Source of the DNA: Bacillus sp. REN16
GTDB lineage: Bacteria; Bacillota; Bacilli; Bacillales; Bacillaceae_L
Direction: 5' to 3'
NCBI RefSeq assembly: GCF_020731355.1
Contig: NZ_JAJFZK010000014.1
Span: 1 to 64,000 of the forward strand
DNA: 64,000 bases
Shown here: one piece after another, positions 14,571 through 25,518 of the stretch
Position numbering within the stretch: the first letter of the stretch is position 1
How the letters are laid out: every line of letters starts with the position of its first letter
Program-made: the position numbers and the translations under genes
The notes under the pieces: model-generated
The model's database searches: none
Seen by the model: the letters and a program-made list of their open reading frames with translations, nothing else
What the model was told of the DNA's origin: nothing

Positions 14571-15773
14571 TTATCCTAACACCTTCTCAATACGTTCGAT
14601 TGCCCAATCTAACTCATCTTTCGTAACGATTAATGGTGGAGCAAACCGGATCACCGTATCATGCGTCTCCTTACAAAGCAGTCCTTCTTGCTTCAAAGCC
14701 TCACAATATGGGCGAGCCTCCTCCGTCAGCTCAACCCCGATAAATAAACCACGGCCACGAACTTCTTTAATCTTTGGATTTTTAATCTCTTGTAATCGTT
14801 CTAGAAAATATTCACCTAATTCAAGAGAACGTTGTGCCAGATTTTCATCAATTAATACGTTCATCGATGCAATCGAAACCGCACAAGCCATTGGATTTCC
14901 ACCAAATGTGGAACCATGTGAACCCGGATTAAACACCCCTAACACATCTTTGTTTGCTACTACACAGGATATCGGGAACACCCCACCTCCTAGCGCCTTA
15001 CCTAATATATACATATCAGGCTCGACTTCATCCCATTCACAGGCAAACATTTTCCCGGAACGGCAAAGTCCAGCTTGAATTTCGTCTGCAACAAAAAGAA
15101 CATTATTTTGTTTACATGTTTCATAAGCTTCCTTAAGGAAACCTTCTGGCGGAATGATAATTCCAGCCTCTCCTTGAATCGGTTCAATTAGAAATGCTGC
15201 TGTATTTTCAGTGATTGCATTCTTAAGTGCCTCAATATCGCCATAAGGAATAAGCTTTATTCCCGGCAGCATTGGACCAAACCCACGCTTATACTCGTCT
15301 TCAGATGATAAGGACACCGCAGTCATGGTACGACCATGGAAGTTTCCAATACAAGCGATGATTTCAGCCTGATTGTCCTGAACTCCTTTTACATCATATG
15401 CCCATCTGCGCGCCGCCTTAATAGCTGTTTCAACGGCTTCTGCCCCCGTATTCATCGGGAGAGCCATCTCTTTATTTGTTACGTTACAAATTAATTCATA
15501 CCAAGGTCCAAGCTGGTCATTATGGAATGCGCGTGATGTTAAGGTGACACGATCCGCCTGATCCTTTAAGGCTTGAATAATTTTGGGATGGCGATGGCCC
15601 TGGTTAACTGCTGAATAAGCACTTAACATGTCCATGTATTTATTGCCTTCTGGATCTTCCACCCACACACACTCTGCTTTTGAAATCACAATTGGCAGTG
15701 GATGATAGTTATTTGCACCAAATTTTTCCGTTTGTTTAATAATTGTTTTTGAGTCGACTTTCGTTTGAGTCAT
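14571..15773 (-). CDS. rocD: Ornithine aminotransferase
   Basis: 400-residue class III PLP aminotransferase that converts ornithine plus 2-oxoglutarate to glutamate-5-semialdehyde and glutamate in arginine catabolism. Hallmarks: [64 protein letters not shown] and [15 protein letters not shown] with the PLP lysine (near residue 254). SD AGGAGG precedes the ATG. It stands alone, divergent from rocR, behind a near-perfect sigma-54 promoter, as expected of a RocR-activated gene. Its product feeds pruA at 51103-52650. Confidence 0.97.
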
Positions 15774-15842
15774 CTATTTAACCTCCTGTCCTCATTCGGA
15801 ATATAAATTCAACTTAAGAATTGCTTCCTGCATATTATCTTA

Positions 15843-15859
15843 TGCAAGAATCATGCCAA
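15843..15859 (-). promoter_or_regulatory. Sigma-54 (SigL) promoter of rocD
   Basis: On the minus strand TTGGCATGATTCTTGCAT has the GG of the -24 element and the GC of the -12 element exactly 12 bases apart. It lies about 70 bases before the rocD start codon. Sigma-54 promoters need an AAA+ activator, and rocR is divergently encoded next door. Confidence 0.92.
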
Positions 15860-15985
15860 ATTCACGGAAAGCCAACTTTTTAGATTAATTAAATCATTTA
15901 AGGTATATTTCGATCGGTATTCATGTTAAATAGGTCGTATTAAAAAGGGATTTATCACTTAGTTTAGTTCATTCAAATCACATTG

Positions 15986-16026
15986 ATGCAAAAATTACTT
16001 GCATTCAATCTTTTTTTGCGCAAAAA
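15986..16026. promoter_or_regulatory. Candidate RocR upstream activating sites
   Basis: Two inverted repeats lie 130-180 bases upstream of the rocD promoter: ATGCA-N9-TGCAT (15986-16004) and TTTTTGCGCAAAAA (16013-16026). Their position and TTTGCA-like arms fit RocR enhancer sites, and the same DNA is just upstream of rocR, so RocR may also control itself. Confidence 0.6.
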
Positions 16027-16115
16027 GTCTTTTCAACCTCCTTCAAAAACGCAAAAATTCTATGCGCTTTCATTTTCTTTCCCGTATAATAATAGTATGA
16101 AAAGGCGGCGATACC

Positions 16116-17543
16116 ATGAAACAGGTTGATGTATTAAAAAACAAAGCAACTGAACAATTGGTACATGAAGTTGATGTGGGCATTCATGTTGTAGACGCAG
16201 AAGGCACCACCATTATCTATAATCAAAAAATGGTTCAAATTGAGGGGATGAATCAACATGATGTTCTAAACAAAAGGCTTGTTGACGTATTTTCGTTTCA
16301 TAAAAATGAGGATAGTACATTGCTTCAGGTTCTTAAAAATGGTGAACCTATAAAAAATGCAAAACAGACCTACTATAATAATCGCGGGCAGGAAATCACC
16401 ACCATTAATCATACCATTCCGATTATGGATGGCCGGAAGCGAATTGGGGCAATGGAAATTGCTCGGGATGTGACAAAACTAGAGAAACTGCTCCGTGAAA
16501 ATATGAATCGAAGAAGCGACACACATTATACTTTTGATAGTATTATTGGGCAAAGTGCTGCTATTTCAGAGGTGGTTGAAGCGAGCAAGCGTGCAACCCG
16601 GACAAGCTCCTCCGTTCTCATTATTGGGGATACCGGTACAGGTAAAGAGCTTTTTGCCCAAAGTATTCACAATGGGAGCAACAGGTCTTCCGCTCCCTTT
16701 ATATCACAAAATTGTGCTGCTTTTCCGGACACATTAATTGAAGGTCTCCTGTTTGGGACAAAAAAAGGTGCTTTCACTGGAGCAATTGACCGCCCCGGCT
16801 TATTTGAGCAGGCAAATGGCGGGACTCTGCTTTTAGACGAGATTAATTCATTAAACCCGGCATTACAAGCAAAGCTTCTGAGGGTGATTCAAGAAAAAAC
16901 GGTCCGACGGGTTGGTGACACAAAGGATAAGAAAGTCGATGTTCGCATCCTAGCAACGATGAATGAGGATCCCATCGATGCCATTTCAGAAGGAAGGCTA
17001 CGCAAGGACCTATATTACAGACTAAGTGTTGTAACGCTTTTTATCCCACCATTACGAAATCGTCGGGATGACATTCCTGAGCTTGCGTATGCATTTTTAG
17101 AGAAGTATGATCACCTGTTTGGGTTGAATGTATCAAAGATTGATGATCAGGTTTTACAGATTTTAATGCAATATGACTGGCCGGGAAATGTTCGTGAGTT
17201 AGAGCATATTATTGAGGGAGCACTAAATGTTATCACATACGAAGATACGATTTCCTATAATCATCTCCCCATGCATTTTAGAAAAAAGCTGCATGTAAAA
17301 CCGGAAACAATAATTACCGTCAACCCACAAATCACAGAAATAACAGATATTCAACCATTAGACAAATACGTGGAGGAATCCGAAACCATATATTTAAAAC
17401 AAGTTCTGCATCAGTTTAACTTTAATATCACAAAATCAGCCGAGGTACTGGGCATGAGTCGGCAAAACCTCCAATATCGCTTAAAAAAGTTTGGAATCAA
17501 AAGAACCCAAAGGGACGATTCTACTGGTTCAAAGGAGTCTTAA
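16116..17543 (+). CDS. rocR: RocR-type sigma-54-dependent transcriptional activator
   Basis: 475-residue activator: an N-terminal PAS sensor domain (about 10-130), an AAA+ domain with Walker A GDTGTGKE (near 178), GAFTGA loop that contacts sigma-54 (in KKGAFTGAIDR, near 215), Walker B GGTLLLDEI (near 240) and the arginine region LRNRRDDIPELA, then a Fis-type helix-turn-helix (NITKSAEVLGMSRQNLQYRL) at the C-terminus. In B. subtilis RocR senses ornithine or citrulline and switches on arginine-catabolic operons. Divergence from rocD and the sigma-54 promoter there support the same role. Confidence 0.93.
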   Translation: MKQVDVLKNKATEQLVHEVDVGIHVVDAEGTTIIYNQKMVQIEGMNQHDVLNKRLVDVFSFHKNEDSTLLQVLKNGEPIKNAKQTYYNNRGQEITTINHTIPIMDGRKRIGAMEIARDVTKLEKLLRENMNRRSDTHYTFDSIIGQSAAISEVVEASKRATRTSSSVLIIGDTGTGKELFAQSIHNGSNRSSAPFISQNCAAFPDTLIEGLLFGTKKGAFTGAIDRPGLFEQANGGTLLLDEINSLNPALQAKLLRVIQEKTVRRVGDTKDKKVDVRILATMNEDPIDAISEGRLRKDLYYRLSVVTLFIPPLRNRRDDIPELAYAFLEKYDHLFGLNVSKIDDQVLQILMQYDWPGNVRELEHIIEGALNVITYEDTISYNHLPMHFRKKLHVKPETIITVNPQITEITDIQPLDKYVEESETIYLKQVLHQFNFNITKSAEVLGMSRQNLQYRLKKFGIKRTQRDDSTGSKES

Positions 17544-19697: not shown

Positions 19698-20258
19698 CTA
19701 TTCCTTGTATATTGATTGGTCTGTAAAATTGTTATAAACCAAATAAATTACGATACATATCGCTGTTGTAATAAAACCCCAGCCCAATGTGATTTGGTCG
19801 ATTACAAGGTAATTATTACATAATTGATTATTTATATTGATATACAATACGCCCATCCCTAAATACTTGACTGTAAAAAAGATGAACACAATGTTTTTTG
19901 CCCGGTCCGTCAGTTTCTTCCAGCTATCACGTAAAGGAACACCTGCTAATAAAGATAGACTCAAAAATTTCCATACTTCCATACTTGTAATGTTTAAAGT
20001 CTCGTCCATTGTTTTTGGTATTGTCCAATACACCATGATTACAATGAATAATAAAATTCCGGGTATGCCATCTTGATTCCATTTTTCAAAAAAACGCGGG
20101 AACCTCTGTTGAAATAATTTTCCCATAAAGAATCCCGCAATTATAATTGAAGGCATTTGCATATGCATATGGATAATCATGATGGACTCCAAGAGATTAG
20201 CAACTGGGGGAAGTGCTAATACGAATAAAAGTCCTAGTCCGATCAAAAATTGTTTCAT
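19698..20258 (-). CDS. Membrane protein of the cba operon, function unknown
   Basis: 186-residue integral membrane protein with about five to six hydrophobic helices. The first loop/second helix carries a striking HMHMQMP motif (near residue 30), whose His and Met residues could bind copper or heme; this is an inference. It starts three bases after the sco stop, so it is the fifth gene of the oxidase/NO reductase operon and is likely an assembly factor or a further subunit. It is reminiscent of CtaG-like copper proteins in its His/Met motif only; I do not recognise the family. Confidence 0.7.
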   Translation of the reverse strand: MKQFLIGLGLLFVLALPPVANLLESIMIIHMHMQMPSIIIAGFFMGKLFQQRFPRFFEKWNQDGIPGILLFIVIMVYWTIPKTMDETLNITSMEVWKFLSLSLLAGVPLRDSWKKLTDRAKNIVFIFFTVKYLGMGVLYININNQLCNNYLVIDQITLGWGFITTAICIVIYLVYNNFTDQSIYKE

Positions 20259-20261
20259 AGC

Positions 20262-20894
20262 CTATTCCCCCTTTTCTTTGTCTAAGATGCTAATGACTTT
20301 GGTAGCCGCTTCATCAATTTCACGGTAATCCATAACATCCATTAAAGAGCCGTTTGGATCTACTAGATAAAAGGCTGAGTTATGTGCAAAATTTCCTCTT
20401 CCATCGGGGATGACAATTACACCGAATTCATCAAGAAGAGTTTGTAATTCAGTTTCGTTTGAAATCCTTGCCATTCTCCATGTTTCTCCGTCTGCTCCAA
20501 AGAATGTACGGTATTTACTTAGAGTTGCCGGGTCATCCCTAGTCGGATCAAAGCTTATGCTCAAAAAGACGATATCTCTTTCGAAGTATTCCTGCGGGAT
20601 TTGTTCATAGACCTGTGCCATGTTCATTTCCAATTGCGGACAAACAGTAGTACATGATGTGTATAGAAATGTGATAAAAATATACTTATCTTGAAACTCA
20701 GAAATAGGATATGTTCGTCCCTCGCTATCTTCAAATGTTACATCTGGAAATGCTGGCTTTTCATCTATTAATTGATTGACTCTTGCTGTTTCTGCAGTAA
20801 ATGCCTGAAATCCGTCAGTTCCTGTATAGAACAGTACACACCCAAATAGTAGTATGAACATACAAGCGAATGTCTTCCGATTCTTTTTGATCAC
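20262..20894 (-). CDS. SCO1/SenC/PrrC-type copper chaperone
   Basis: 210-residue membrane-anchored thioredoxin-fold protein. An N-terminal helix (about 10-28) is followed by FPDVTFEDSEGRTYPISEF, the copper-binding TSCTTVCP (CxxxC) and FAHNSAFYLVD supplying the third ligand histidine. Sco proteins metallate the CuA site of the CuA-bearing subunit II, and one is encoded three genes upstream here. The GTG at 20894 is chosen because AGGATGTGATC, a ten-of-eleven match to the ideal ribosome site, overlaps the alternative GTG at 20903. Confidence 0.92.
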   Translation of the reverse strand: MIKKNRKTFACMFILLFGCVLFYTGTDGFQAFTAETARVNQLIDEKPAFPDVTFEDSEGRTYPISEFQDKYIFITFLYTSCTTVCPQLEMNMAQVYEQIPQEYFERDIVFLSISFDPTRDDPATLSKYRTFFGADGETWRMARISNETELQTLLDEFGVIVIPDGRGNFAHNSAFYLVDPNGSLMDVMDYREIDEAATKVISILDKEKGE

Positions 20895-20989
20895 GAAGAT
20901 CACATCCTATTTCTTATATTTCTTTAATTATAGAAAGAGATAGCACTTTTACTTCGCTATCTCTTTCTAATAAGGTGCCTACTTCAGGA

Positions 20990-22681
20990 TTACCAAGTCT
21001 TAAATGGTGGTGATCCTGGAGGTGCGTTTACAATCATATCTGTTAATGGTAATACATATGCCATTGCGATTACTAGAACCATAAGCACTACCCATAGTCC
21101 CCAACGCTCTGTCCACTTAGGAGTTGGTGAAGCATTTTCTTCTACTTCAGCGATTGGGAATTCTGTTAAGCCTTTTGGTGCAAAGAACATCATGTTAAAT
21201 ACTGCGTATACTTGGATGATTACACCGATTAGTAATAGTGTTGCACCGATACCCACTAGCATCATGAATGGTTCCCAGCTTGCCGCTTGTTCACTGCCGA
21301 AGTAATCAGAGAATGATGTTCTACGTGGTGATCCAAAAAGACCAACTGTATGCATTGAACCTGACATTATAATCATACCAATTGTCCAAATGATGGTTTG
21401 AACTACACCTAATTTATTCATTCCTTTTGTTAAAACGCGTCCTGAAATATGAGGAACTAACCAATAACTAATTCCGAAAAATGTCATCGCTGCTGTCATA
21501 CCTAGTGTTAAGTGGAAATGTCCTACAATCCACATTGTATTGTGAACAACTTGGTCAAGATGGTTAGTTGTTTGTGCAATACCACCCGCACCAGCTGGGA
21601 TGAAGGCCGCCATTGCGATGAATGGAGCTAGGAAGCGCACATCTCCCCATGGTAATTTCTTGATCCAACCTAATGCCCCTTTTGCACCTTTTGCTCTTCC
21701 AGTACGTTCAAATACTGCGAACATTGCCCATGCTGTCATTAATGATGGGAAACCAATTGCTAAACTCATGAATACGTGTAGGAATTTTACGGACAAGTTA
21801 ATTCCTGGGTCAACGATTTGGTGGTGGAATCCACCCGTAATGTTCATGATAACAAGTGCAATTACAACTACACGAGTCAGTAAATCACTCCAGCGCTTTC
21901 CACCGATAATTTTCGGTATGATAACATACCACGCAGATACTGCTGTTAAATACCAGATGTTAACGGCTGTATGTCCGAATGCCCAGAATAGTGTTCTAGA
22001 AACCATTACATTAATTGTATCTACCCAGCCAAATGCCCAAGGTAGAATTAAGAATAATACTTCAACTGCTACAAATGCTGTTGCTCCAACTAATAAAATG
22101 AATACTCCAGTTGCAAAGAAAGAAAGGATTGGCAGATGCTGACCTTTATGATTCTTTCTCCAGTTTGCCACTTGCATAAATGCTCCAACTGATAAAATCC
22201 AAATACCAACCACCACTAGTGCTAACCCAATATAGAACACTGGGTGTGCTTTCATTGGTGGGTAGAAAGTATACATAACAGACGCTTCATTCATTAAGAC
22301 AGGTATTACAACAAGCACGATACCAAGCATCTTCGTCCAGAAGCCGACCCACGCCATTTTTCTTACCTTAGGTAGTAATCCTCCTAAGTCATGTGAAAGA
22401 CCTGCGTAGAAATAACCAATACAAACAAATGCTGAAAATACAACTACTAAAAGTAGACCGTGTGCTGTTAATACTTGATAATAATTTAACCAGCTTGGCA
22501 ATTCTAAAAGACCTGCCCGGTTTAATCCTTGAAATAGTCCAAAAAGCCCACCTAATAATAATGCGATAAATGCTACTGATAAATAAGATTTTGAGATTTT
22601 TGCGTCCAGTGGATTTACACCTAGAACCTTGTTTGCTTTTTCCTTTAAGGTCAAATCTGAATTATTTAATACTGTTGCCAA
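20990..22681 (-). CDS. cbaA: B-family heme-copper reductase catalytic subunit (cbaA-like), possible NO reductase
   Basis: 563-residue, about 13-helix protein of the ba3 (type B) heme-copper superfamily. The heme and CuB ligands are all present: H74 (TAHGLL), H237 (FGHTAV), H286-H287 (FHHQIVDPG), H388 and H390 (GHFHL). In ba3 oxidases H237 is followed four residues later by the tyrosine cross-linked to it; here that residue is N241 (GHTAVN). The other channel tyrosine seven residues after that (Y244 of Thermus ba3) is also replaced, by V248. The cross-linked tyrosine is needed for O2 splitting and is missing in NO reductases, so this may be a CuA-type NO reductase. Third gene of the cba operon. 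Confidence 0.87.
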   Translation of the reverse strand: MATVLNNSDLTLKEKANKVLGVNPLDAKISKSYLSVAFIALLLGGLFGLFQGLNRAGLLELPSWLNYYQVLTAHGLLLVVVFSAFVCIGYFYAGLSHDLGGLLPKVRKMAWVGFWTKMLGIVLVVIPVLMNEASVMYTFYPPMKAHPVFYIGLALVVVGIWILSVGAFMQVANWRKNHKGQHLPILSFFATGVFILLVGATAFVAVEVLFLILPWAFGWVDTINVMVSRTLFWAFGHTAVNIWYLTAVSAWYVIIPKIIGGKRWSDLLTRVVVIALVIMNITGGFHHQIVDPGINLSVKFLHVFMSLAIGFPSLMTAWAMFAVFERTGRAKGAKGALGWIKKLPWGDVRFLAPFIAMAAFIPAGAGGIAQTTNHLDQVVHNTMWIVGHFHLTLGMTAAMTFFGISYWLVPHISGRVLTKGMNKLGVVQTIIWTIGMIIMSGSMHTVGLFGSPRRTSFSDYFGSEQAASWEPFMMLVGIGATLLLIGVIIQVYAVFNMMFFAPKGLTEFPIAEVEENASPTPKWTERWGLWVVLMVLVIAMAYVLPLTDMIVNAPPGSPPFKTW

Positions 22682-22695
22682 TGGTCTCCCCTCCT

Positions 22696-23169
22696 TTATT
22701 TCACAATAATTTTAGTTGCCATTAATTGGTGACCGGAACCGCAATATTCATTACATAGAACTAAATACTCACCAGGCTCATCAAATGTTTGAGTAATTTT
22801 TTGAATATGTCCTGGCATTACCATAGCGTTTAAGTTAGTACCTGCAACTTCAAATCCATGCACAACATCCTTCGATGTCATAATAAAAGTAACTTTTGAA
22901 CCAGCAGGTATTTCGATATTCCCTGGATTAAAGGCGAATATTTCTAATGTCATGACAACTTCATATTCATTTTCTCCAGTTTGATATACACCTGGTTTAT
23001 CAAATGGGGCTGTTTCGTCTACCTTTTGTGGATCGATTGTTTCCATTGTACTTGGTGGCCCCATTTCCAATGCAAACGTTTGGTAGCCCGTTACAAGCAT
23101 GAATACTACGATCATCCCGAAACTTAATGTAAGCCATATTTTTTCATCAAGATGCATTTTTTGTTTCAT
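22696..23169 (-). CDS. cbaB: CuA-containing subunit II (cbaB-like)
   Basis: 157-residue subunit: one N-terminal membrane helix (about residues 12-32) and a cupredoxin domain exposed outside. The binuclear CuA site is complete: the upstream histidine in DVVHGFEVAG and CNEYCGSGHQLM with two cysteines, histidine and methionine. It would take electrons from cytochrome c or another donor and pass them to CbaA. Fifteen bases separate it from cbaA and eleven from cbaD. Confidence 0.93.
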   Translation of the reverse strand: MKQKMHLDEKIWLTLSFGMIVVFMLVTGYQTFALEMGPPSTMETIDPQKVDETAPFDKPGVYQTGENEYEVVMTLEIFAFNPGNIEIPAGSKVTFIMTSKDVVHGFEVAGTNLNAMVMPGHIQKITQTFDEPGEYLVLCNEYCGSGHQLMATKIIVK

Positions 23170-23180
23170 CGTTTTCCCTC

Positions 23181-23330
23181 CTAAAATCTAGCCATGAATA
23201 GGCCGAATAGTGTTATATACGTAAAAAGAATGACTGCTCCAACAACCCCGACTGAAATCCAAGTTCCAACTAATCGTCCTTGGTATTCCCCGTCTGAATT
23301 TTTGTTTCGGTTAACTTTTGAAGCTCCCAT
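23181..23330 (-). CDS. cbaD: Small subunit IIa (cbaD-like)
   Basis: 49-residue single-helix protein, MGASKVNRNKN start and GTWISVGVVGAVILFTYITL helix, matching the small subunit IIa (COX2A family) of ba3-type enzymes; this helix replaces the first helix of ordinary subunit II. The ATG at 23330 follows AAGGAGG by nine bases. It is first in the operon, directly behind the Fnr-type promoter. Confidence 0.85.
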   Translation of the reverse strand: MGASKVNRNKNSDGEYQGRLVGTWISVGVVGAVILFTYITLFGLFMARF

Positions 23331-23363: not shown

Positions 23364-23406
23364 ATCATAGTTAGGAACCATTCTCAATGTTGTGAACTGA
23401 ATCACA
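23364..23406 (-). promoter_or_regulatory. Fnr/CRP-type site with matching -10 for the cba operon
   Basis: TGTGAACTGAATCACA (23391-23406) is a perfect TGTGA-N6-TCACA palindrome, the B. subtilis Fnr consensus. On the minus strand a TATGAT -10 lies at 23364-23369; the implied start near 23357 places the palindrome centre at -41.5, the class II activator position. There is no good -35. It precedes cbaD by about 60 bases. Confidence 0.75.
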
Positions 23407-23587: not shown

Positions 23588-23622
23588 ATAAAAAGGCAGC
23601 CTCCATCTGTTGGAGGCTGCCT
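23588..23622 (-). terminator. Terminator of the methyltransferase gene
   Basis: AGGCAGCCTCCA (23594-23605) pairs perfectly with TGGAGGCTGCCT (23611-23622), TCTGT loop; on the minus strand it is followed by TTTTATTTG. The stem begins in the stop codon of the gene. Confidence 0.85.
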
Positions 23623-24226
23623 ATCCTAGCCGATAAACCATAAATCTTTCATATGTGTTTTTCGCAAACAATTCCGGAATGATAATCTCTTTCTTTAATT
23701 GAAAAGATGTGTTGTCTTCTAGAAAGCGGGTGTAATCTGTTGATCCATAATAAAGAATGATCTCCATCCCGCGCGGATTCCGCTCGTTAGATTGAAGAAT
23801 ATTAGAAACCGTATGCTTGAAAACTTGAATTGAAAAAGGATTAAAAAAGTAAAAATGATTATCGAATGGATTTATTTCATATTCTTGTGCTGCACAATGG
23901 TGGATTTCAATATCTTCTTTGAGGATACCCGGCTTCTTTACATAACGATTTCGATTTTGAACGGCATCGTGATACAGGCCCTTATCAACCTCAACCCCGA
24001 TAACAGTTGCCTTAAAAAAATGATGAATATAAAAAAGAATCCGTCCCTTCCCACAACCAAAATCCACTACGCGGTCCGTCTTTTTCAATTGATAATGATT
24101 AAATAGTGAGTCAAGTCCTGCATATGGTGTTGGTTCATAACGGTTATTGTGAACAGACGAACTAAAGCCCTTTTGTCCTCCACCTGTTTTTACATTTAAT
24201 AGCGCATCGAAATATTTATCATCCAT
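23621..24226 (-). CDS. Class I SAM-dependent methyltransferase
   Basis: 201-residue protein with the SAM-binding motif VVDFGCGKGRILFY (near residue 53), the acidic strand end VIGVEVD and the later FYFFNPF strand, which is in the usual catalytic loop position. Substrate unknown. It lies between the cba operon and ctaB on the same strand, but terminators on both sides show it is transcribed alone. ATG with AGGAG. Confidence 0.85.
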   Translation of the reverse strand: MDDKYFDALLNVKTGGGQKGFSSSVHNNRYEPTPYAGLDSLFNHYQLKKTDRVVDFGCGKGRILFYIHHFFKATVIGVEVDKGLYHDAVQNRNRYVKKPGILKEDIEIHHCAAQEYEINPFDNHFYFFNPFSIQVFKHTVSNILQSNERNPRGMEIILYYGSTDYTRFLEDNTSFQLKKEIIIPELFAKNTYERFMVYRLG

Positions 24227-24300: not shown

Positions 24301-25203
24301 TTATCCGATATATTTCGGCAATGTAACAATGACCATTAATAGGAAGATAAGCAAAATGTAGTTTACGGAATATAGAAAATTCCAGCGAGACCATTTCATA
24401 TCATCCTTAACTGAAAACCCTTTGATACTTAAGATAATCCATCCGATATTAAGTAATGTCGCAAGAACAACAAAAACCATTCCAAGGTCGTGTAAAAAGA
24501 AAGGCATTGGAAACAGACAAATCACCCAGAACAGAATATGTCTCTTCGTTACCACAAAACCGCGAACCACTGGAAGCATCGCAACATCTGCCGCCTTATA
24601 CTCTTCATATTTTCTCATTGCGATTGCATACGTATGGGGCATTTGGAACACAAATAAAATTAAAAAGAGCATGATTGGGACAGTATGATGAATTGGTGCA
24701 ACAGCGGCCCACCCCATCAGTGGCGAAACGGCGCCTGATACACTCCCAATCACGGTATTTATCGTAAATCTGCGCTTAGACCACATCGTGTACAGCACAA
24801 CATACGTAAACCAGCCCACAAATGTGAAAAAGACGGCTTCAAATGTGGTGAAAAATAGGAAAATGAATCCCAATACTGTACAGATAATGCCCAAAGCCAA
24901 TACAAATTTCATTGAAAAATGTCCTGTAACTGTTGGACGTTTTTTGGTTCGATCCATGACTGTATCGATATCAACATCGTACCAATTGTTAATGATCAAA
25001 GCTCCCGCCATAACGAGCGTACTTCCAATCATTGTGTATAGTAACAATCCAAAATTATCTTGAAATGATGCCCCCGTAAAATAGATGGCTAACCAAAATC
25101 CTGAAAACACAGGTAGAACATTTGCTAGTAAAACTCCTGCCTTAAAAAGGGATTTAAGATCAGCTATGAGGGAAGTTTTTTGTAATTGTATTTCTGTTTT
25201 CAT
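24301..25203 (-). CDS. ctaB: Protoheme IX farnesyltransferase (heme O synthase)
   Basis: 300-residue UbiA-family membrane prenyltransferase with eight or nine helices. The Mg-diphosphate-binding NNWYDVDIDTVMDR (near residue 77) and the second KYEEYKAAD loop are present. It attaches farnesyl to heme B to make heme O for terminal oxidases. The ATG at 25203 follows GAGAGGA; the longer frame to 25239 lacks a site. It is near the cba operon but separately transcribed, so it could supply heme O to that enzyme or to an oxidase elsewhere. Confidence 0.93.
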   Translation of the reverse strand: MKTEIQLQKTSLIADLKSLFKAGVLLANVLPVFSGFWLAIYFTGASFQDNFGLLLYTMIGSTLVMAGALIINNWYDVDIDTVMDRTKKRPTVTGHFSMKFVLALGIICTVLGFIFLFFTTFEAVFFTFVGWFTYVVLYTMWSKRRFTINTVIGSVSGAVSPLMGWAAVAPIHHTVPIMLFLILFVFQMPHTYAIAMRKYEEYKAADVAMLPVVRGFVVTKRHILFWVICLFPMPFFLHDLGMVFVVLATLLNIGWIILSIKGFSVKDDMKWSRWNFLYSVNYILLIFLLMVIVTLPKYIG

Positions 25204-25518
25204 TTCTATCCTCTCTCCTGCCTTCAAGTACAAGGTCAATATGCTTCAAATATACTATACCATTTTTATAGCACTTAGGATAAGAAAACCACTTTTTACC
25301 TACATCAATTGTGATAACGGCCCAAACGCAACCCTAACAATTCAGTTAGGACTTTGTTAGTATTTACCATCCCTCGTTTTTATCTAAAATGAAACCATCC
25401 TTTCTTTTCATCGTATATACAAGTAGAAAGATAGGAAGGTGATTTACAAGAGAATTTCGTGATAATAGGTTATAATAATTAAAAATATAGACACTAACTC
25501 ATGGAGGTACACAAATTT
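25204..25518. other. Intergenic region upstream of ctaB and the glycine-rich protein gene
   Basis: Divergent promoter region. On the minus strand a TATAGT -10 for ctaB is seen near 25256. A palindrome CCTAAC-N6-GTTAGG lies at 25333-25350 of unknown use. No gene or strong repeat was found. Confidence 0.5.

Follow-up and report, generated by a model that had tools for sequence, protein, structure and literature searches.

Does the gene at 20990-22681 (minus strand) of this Bacillus sp. REN16 DNA encode an oxygen reductase or a nitric oxide reductase? The window, by which we mean the whole stretch of 64,000 nucleotides that was analysed, codes here for CbaA, a heme-copper catalytic subunit I of 563 residues. 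The plus-strand frame over the same positions is riddled with stops, and for the TTG start at 22681 several relatives can be aligned from residue 1. Pfam COX1 is a good fit to CbaA, NCBIfam yields nothing but matches to models of oxidase subunit I that score well short of their cut-offs (at best 87.9 bits where 670.75 are required), and the best solved relatives are the Thermus ba3 chains (E about 1e-94). The first-pass annotation had proposed a candidate CuA-type NO reductase. Clade placement, residues and synteny all support that proposal, and the locus almost certainly encodes bNOR (qCuANOR or CuANOR), a B-family heme-copper NO reductase that would be active as such in REN16.

Residues were compared across 45 aligned proteins: 30 bNORs including that of the window, 12 Bacillota ba3-type oxidases, Thermus ba3, the relative L051 and the sNOR-like protein of the same genome. 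The six histidine ligands proposed for CbaA by the first-pass annotation (H74, H237, H286, H287, H388 and H390) align with the Thermus ba3 ligands and are identical across all 45 proteins. N241, which it had placed at the position of the cross-linked tyrosine, does align with that tyrosine in Thermus ba3. Position 241 is Asn in the 30 bNORs, L051 and the sNOR, and Tyr in the 12 oxidases and Thermus. Asn241 is also kept in 86/86 related loci, a sample biased to close kin that consists of the best 80 (L066-L145) of 230 relatives found in a scan of 84,980 species genomes, plus six fetched loci (L046-L051). Among the 249 genomes of the window's order, at least 36 have a bNOR match at 65% identity or more, one of these (G203) being partial.

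The phylogeny agrees with the residues. The 30 bNORs form one clade (96/99), in which the window protein groups with the B. azotoformans protein L024 and two relatives (95/87), and the Tyr-bearing oxidases stand apart together with Thermus (97/87). CbaA thus groups with the B. azotoformans CuANOR and does not fall among the ba3-type oxidases that bear the Tyr. The outgroup branches are long (3.52 for Thermus, 10 for the sNOR), and the deep order of the tree is therefore less sure than the bNOR clade itself.

The link to a characterised enzyme goes through L024. At 20 of 20 residues its subunit II is identical to the terminus determined for the purified enzyme, its CbaC matches the genome-derived sequence printed in PMC3475470 at 30 of 30, and its CbaA frame has its start at 105527 on contig 42, the coordinate given in that paper. 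By these matches, L024 is the published B. azotoformans LMG 9581 locus (BAZO_06394-06409). It has the cbaC-cbaB-cbaA-senC-cbaD order, the CuA subunit, the six histidines, Asn241 and Tyr244, just as in the window, and its CbaA is 74% identical to ours. The names bNOR, eNOR and sNOR reportedly come from a paper later than the one that described this cluster. The description dates from 2012, when a cbaC-cbaB-cbaA-sco-cbaD cluster in B. azotoformans LMG 9581 and B. bataviensis was tied to the purified qCuANOR through its N-terminal sequence, and the change from Tyr to Asn was stated (PMC3475470). The cba-type gene set that the first-pass annotation gave for the B. azotoformans CuANOR matches this cluster. 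The family, its Asn and its genes, among them the one for the HMHMQM protein (there cbaD1), are already known from that paper. The B. azotoformans enzyme converts NO to N2O with c551 as donor (PMC3475470), and it is electrogenic (PMC5826923). In a wider survey, 433 Bacillota genomes carried a gene for NO or N2O reductase and 123 of these had bNOR, for which the KEGG label is coxA (PMC11388526). The finding bears out an NO reductase of the Bacillota that is mistaken for an oxidase in general annotation, which matters for the prediction of N2O emission.

One other tyrosine deserves attention. Tyr244 sits seven residues past H237, and helix geometry would put positions i+4 and i+7 on one helix face, that of N241, so CbaA could in principle be an oxygen reductase in which Tyr244 replaces the cross-linked tyrosine. 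The residue is real and invariant: position 244 is Tyr in 30/30 bNORs, including B. azotoformans, and Leu in the 12 oxidases and Thermus, and Tyr244 is found in 85/86 related loci, L051 having Met. This much of the alternative suggested in the first-pass annotation stands; as an oxidase marker Tyr244 fails, since the B. azotoformans NO reductase L024, with which the window protein groups, combines Asn241 with the same Tyr244. Two more positions set bNOR apart from the oxidases. Position 248 is V in 23, T in 4, I in 2 and L in 1 of the 30 bNORs (V248 in the window) and Tyr in the oxidases, and position 319 is Ala in all 30 (A319 in the window) and in one oxidase, Ser in the other 11 and Thr in Thermus. 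We consider an oxygen reductase using Tyr244 very improbable, and the tree, the residues and the characterised homologue together lead us to reject the reading of CbaA as an oxidase.

Positions 248 and 319 are those that we take to be Thermus Y244 and T315, analogue residues of the K-path. The ba3 K-path analogue Tyr and Ser/Thr are thus absent from the window CbaA, while positions 252 (Y), 313 (S) and 316 (T) are common to bNOR and oxidases. A Glu near the N-terminus of subunit II, which presumably fits the K-path entrance, is kept in 86/86 loci (85 by pattern, and L051 as EKLW). CuANOR was described as keeping many K-path analogue features (PMC5826923), and the counts given here show which K-path positions bNOR does not keep. 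The changes may be visible already in Figure A3 of PMC3475470.

Other relatives differ from the window to varying degrees. Neobacillus bataviensis LMG 21833 (BABA_00215-00235; contig02) has the whole gene set including ctaB, with a CbaA 76% identical to that of the window, and shows merely ordinary divergence. Thermus ba3 and the ba3-type oxidase of the REN16 genome (L003, 53% identical to the window CbaA) share with the window the superfamily, the six histidines and, for L003, the CuA subunit II; both retain two tyrosines that the window CbaA lacks, the cross-linked one and that at 248. The sNOR-like protein of the genome (L005) resembles the window in having Asn at the Tyr position (GHIFAN) and a CuA-domain match just upstream, and differs in its shorter subunit I (495 residues) and very distant placement (end branch of 10). 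The label sNOR (type II qCuANOR) is ours, given from the length, the Asn and the CuA-type neighbour. In a separate observation, L051 (G208:C12; 3002-4699 and 4725-5189, minus strand) holds a CbaA of the Asn type that branches deeply (54% identical), together with a CuA subunit II. It has GHLHL for GHFHL and Met at the Tyr244 position, no sco or cbaD was found there, and in the tree it is sister to bNOR (94/78) on a long branch.

Around cbaA, all on the minus strand, the window holds the full cluster. The gene cbaC (23181-23330, ATG start) encodes a small subunit of 49 residues, and cbaB (22696-23169) the CuA subunit II, with the CuA motif H...CNEYCGSGHQLM, which is present in the window and in 86/86 loci; its MHLDEKIWLTLSFGMIVVFM shares 16 of 20 residues with the terminus published for the purified CuANOR subunit. 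Next to cbaA come sco/senC (20262-20903), an SCO1-type copper chaperone with its CxxxC as TSCTTVCPQ and a likely role in CuA loading, and cbaD (19698-20258), a membrane protein with HMHMQM at residues 30-35. The first-pass annotation had named sco and a new HMHMQM protein in the operon. Both do lie downstream of cbaA, and the second is not new, being the published cbaD1; cbaC, cbaB and ctaB are additional to the genes it named. With tblastn in the 86 loci, we find cbaB in 86, cbaC in 83 (not in L047, L051 and L143), sco in 80, cbaD in 80 and ctaB in 44. Neither sco nor cbaD was found in L048, L049, L051 and L132, nor in L089 and L101, whose contigs stop there.

CbaD has six predicted helices as cbaD1 in PMC3475470. 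HMHMQM is present in 81/81 CbaD copies including that of the window, and E24, M27, W78, M84, D85, W113, C147 and Y150 are invariant too; the string HMHMQM was not found in the literature searched. Pfam gives no convincing family for CbaD. DUF5693 matches weakly in 20 of 57 members (best E 0.0032), as does DUF1404 in 7 of them (best E 8.2e-6), both being absent from the window copy. We also tried and rejected CtaG as an identity for CbaD: Caa3_CtaG is neither matched by the window CbaD nor among the 25 families listed for the 57 members, and hhalign against 25 CtaG sequences gives a probability of 0.8% (E 0.073). The weak, non-significant alignment between CbaD and CtaG falls on the HM-QM segment.

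These components suggest how the enzyme might work. Electrons would be delivered to CuA of CbaB by a small cytochrome c, which in B. azotoformans is c551, and from there they would reach the low-spin heme in CbaA and then the heme/CuB pair, at which two NO would become N2O. Because NO reduction takes only two electrons, no His-Tyr cross-link, which serves O-O cleavage, would be needed, and Asn would occupy the place of the cross-linked Tyr. CbaC would be a small helix subunit and Sco would load copper into CuA. CbaD would probably be another copper-handling assembly protein, and the ctaB paralogue would probably provide heme O.

This ctaB paralogue (24301-25239, minus strand), a heme O synthase gene of the bNOR-associated type, is one of two ctaB over the cut-off in the REN16 genome, the other copy lying on contig C60 beside the CtaD-like oxidase. 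Among the relatives then known, PMC3475470 noted ctaB solely in B. bataviensis, and suggested heme o3. We find ctaB adjoining bNOR in 44/86 loci, and in 38 of the 64 named loci having at least 5.5 kb on both sides, so the link is common, beyond the one strain of PMC3475470; such a common link was not seen among the papers listed in our search of the open-licence literature. In 35 loci the linked gene lies upstream, in the same orientation; in the other 9 it lies downstream, with 8 in the same orientation. In a quick ctaB tree, the linked copies from 43 loci and the window, 44 in all, split from 18 others (SH-aLRT 100, with a long-branch warning); the tree omits the short linked copy L050 and one of 19 others, and the 18 others come from the window's family only. 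Among the matches listed, 18 of the 36 bNOR genomes have a bNOR-type ctaB, against 3 of the 213 lacking bNOR (G190, G015 and G144), with a Fisher P of 8.5e-15 for genomes that are not independent. Here the bNOR-type line is at least 58% identity, drawn after viewing the table, which excludes three ctaB at 57% (G150, G195 and G099, of which G195 has bNOR), and the CbaA and ctaB searches are taken as covering the same 249 genomes from their equal number and genome labels. In 16 of the 18 genomes, ctaB is within about 4 kb of cbaA (not in G244 and G205). Comparing CbaA columns with ctaB linkage gives a best Fisher P of 1.9e-6, uncorrected for kinship (39 sequences with, including the window, and 26 without), from which we conclude nothing.

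We tentatively propose, as something possible that we would not yet call probable, that about half of bNORs, including that of the window, are heme-o3 enzymes with their own heme O synthase, unlike the heme-b B. azotoformans enzyme, and that CbaD is a dedicated CuB loader for the Tyr-less site. It is a serious possibility, if short of a probable one, that ctaB near bNOR instead serves a Tyr-bearing ba3/bo3-type oxidase or the general supply of heme O. In the window another gene and a terminator-like hairpin lie between ctaB and cbaC, no ctaB was seen within the available DNA of 42/86 loci, and a Geobacillus relative of the Tyr-bearing oxidase has heme o3 (PMC3475470). According to the same source the B. 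azotoformans cluster has no ctaB beside it, where the window has one. Against such roles stand the co-occurrence of bNOR-type ctaB with bNOR, the 106 genomes without bNOR that have another B-type match (142 minus 36, among the matches listed, with Tyr mostly uninspected), and the position of the linked ctaB, upstream in 35 loci and downstream in 9. Returning to a heme O synthase dedicated to bNOR, the co-occurrence offers a simple test of which heme bNOR carries.

The gene between ctaB and cbaC (23621-24226, minus strand) is weakly methyltransferase-like, below Pfam cut-offs. It is followed by the terminator-like hairpin (23594-23622, minus strand) with 12 pairs and a T tail, one being found where 0.1 is expected from shuffles. 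The hairpin suggests that cbaC begins its own transcript, and the window ctaB is probably on a separate one. The sequence TGTGATTCAGTTCACA (23391-23406, minus strand), 60 bases before cbaC, is an exact TGTGA-N6-TCACA box, which by consensus we take to be a Crp/Fnr site. No other exact match exists in the window; when up to two mismatches are allowed, the pattern occurs 13 times where 31 are expected, which is no enrichment. For 85 loci the sequence reaches far enough to look for the box: 61 carry it with at most one mismatch (11 of these exactly), almost always 214-253 bases before cbaB, and 24 lack it; control windows, which include coding DNA, have it in 13 of 2474, none exact. Only the exact site and the fixed place in relatives speak for the box. 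bNOR would then be under Crp/Fnr control, and the conserved box offers a simple test of when bNOR is made. Fnr goes unmentioned in PMC3475470.

Judged by eye, the REN16 genome has a CtaD-like (L001), a QoxB-like (L002) and a Tyr-bearing ba3-type subunit I (L003), besides bNOR and the sNOR-like L005, with no qNOR among its seven PF00115 matches. Because the Tyr-bearing ba3-type oxidase is present, O2 reduction need not rest on bNOR. A NarG match passes its cut-off. A protein that resembles NirK and has two multicopper oxidase domains reaches 198 bits, under the curated cut-off of 296, and the four partial NosZ matches in the genome are all below the cut-off. From this gene content, REN16 would probably make N2O and stop there. 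The lack of a NosZ match over the cut-off and the sub-threshold NirK-like match also fit an enzyme used mainly for NO detoxification or micro-oxic NO reduction, not as a step of denitrification, and a suggestion of NO reduction in micro-oxic settings is repeated in PMC11388526. We find this use unlikely to be the main one: the Crp/Fnr-type box before cbaC and NarG fit anaerobic respiration of nitrate or nitrite, and the electrogenic action reported for the B. azotoformans CuANOR (PMC5826923) is useful for respiration.

Two further observations concern regulators. On the contig of the sNOR-like gene (G000:C1, about 280-291 kb, L005 and L007), a Crp-family regulator and a multi-helix protein with a sub-threshold COX1 match are found at a distance of 5-8 kb from that gene. 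In the window, at 14574-17543, a PAS/sigma-54 activator gene (16116-17543) is beside an ornithine aminotransferase gene (14574-15773), a pair that probably serves arginine or ornithine use.
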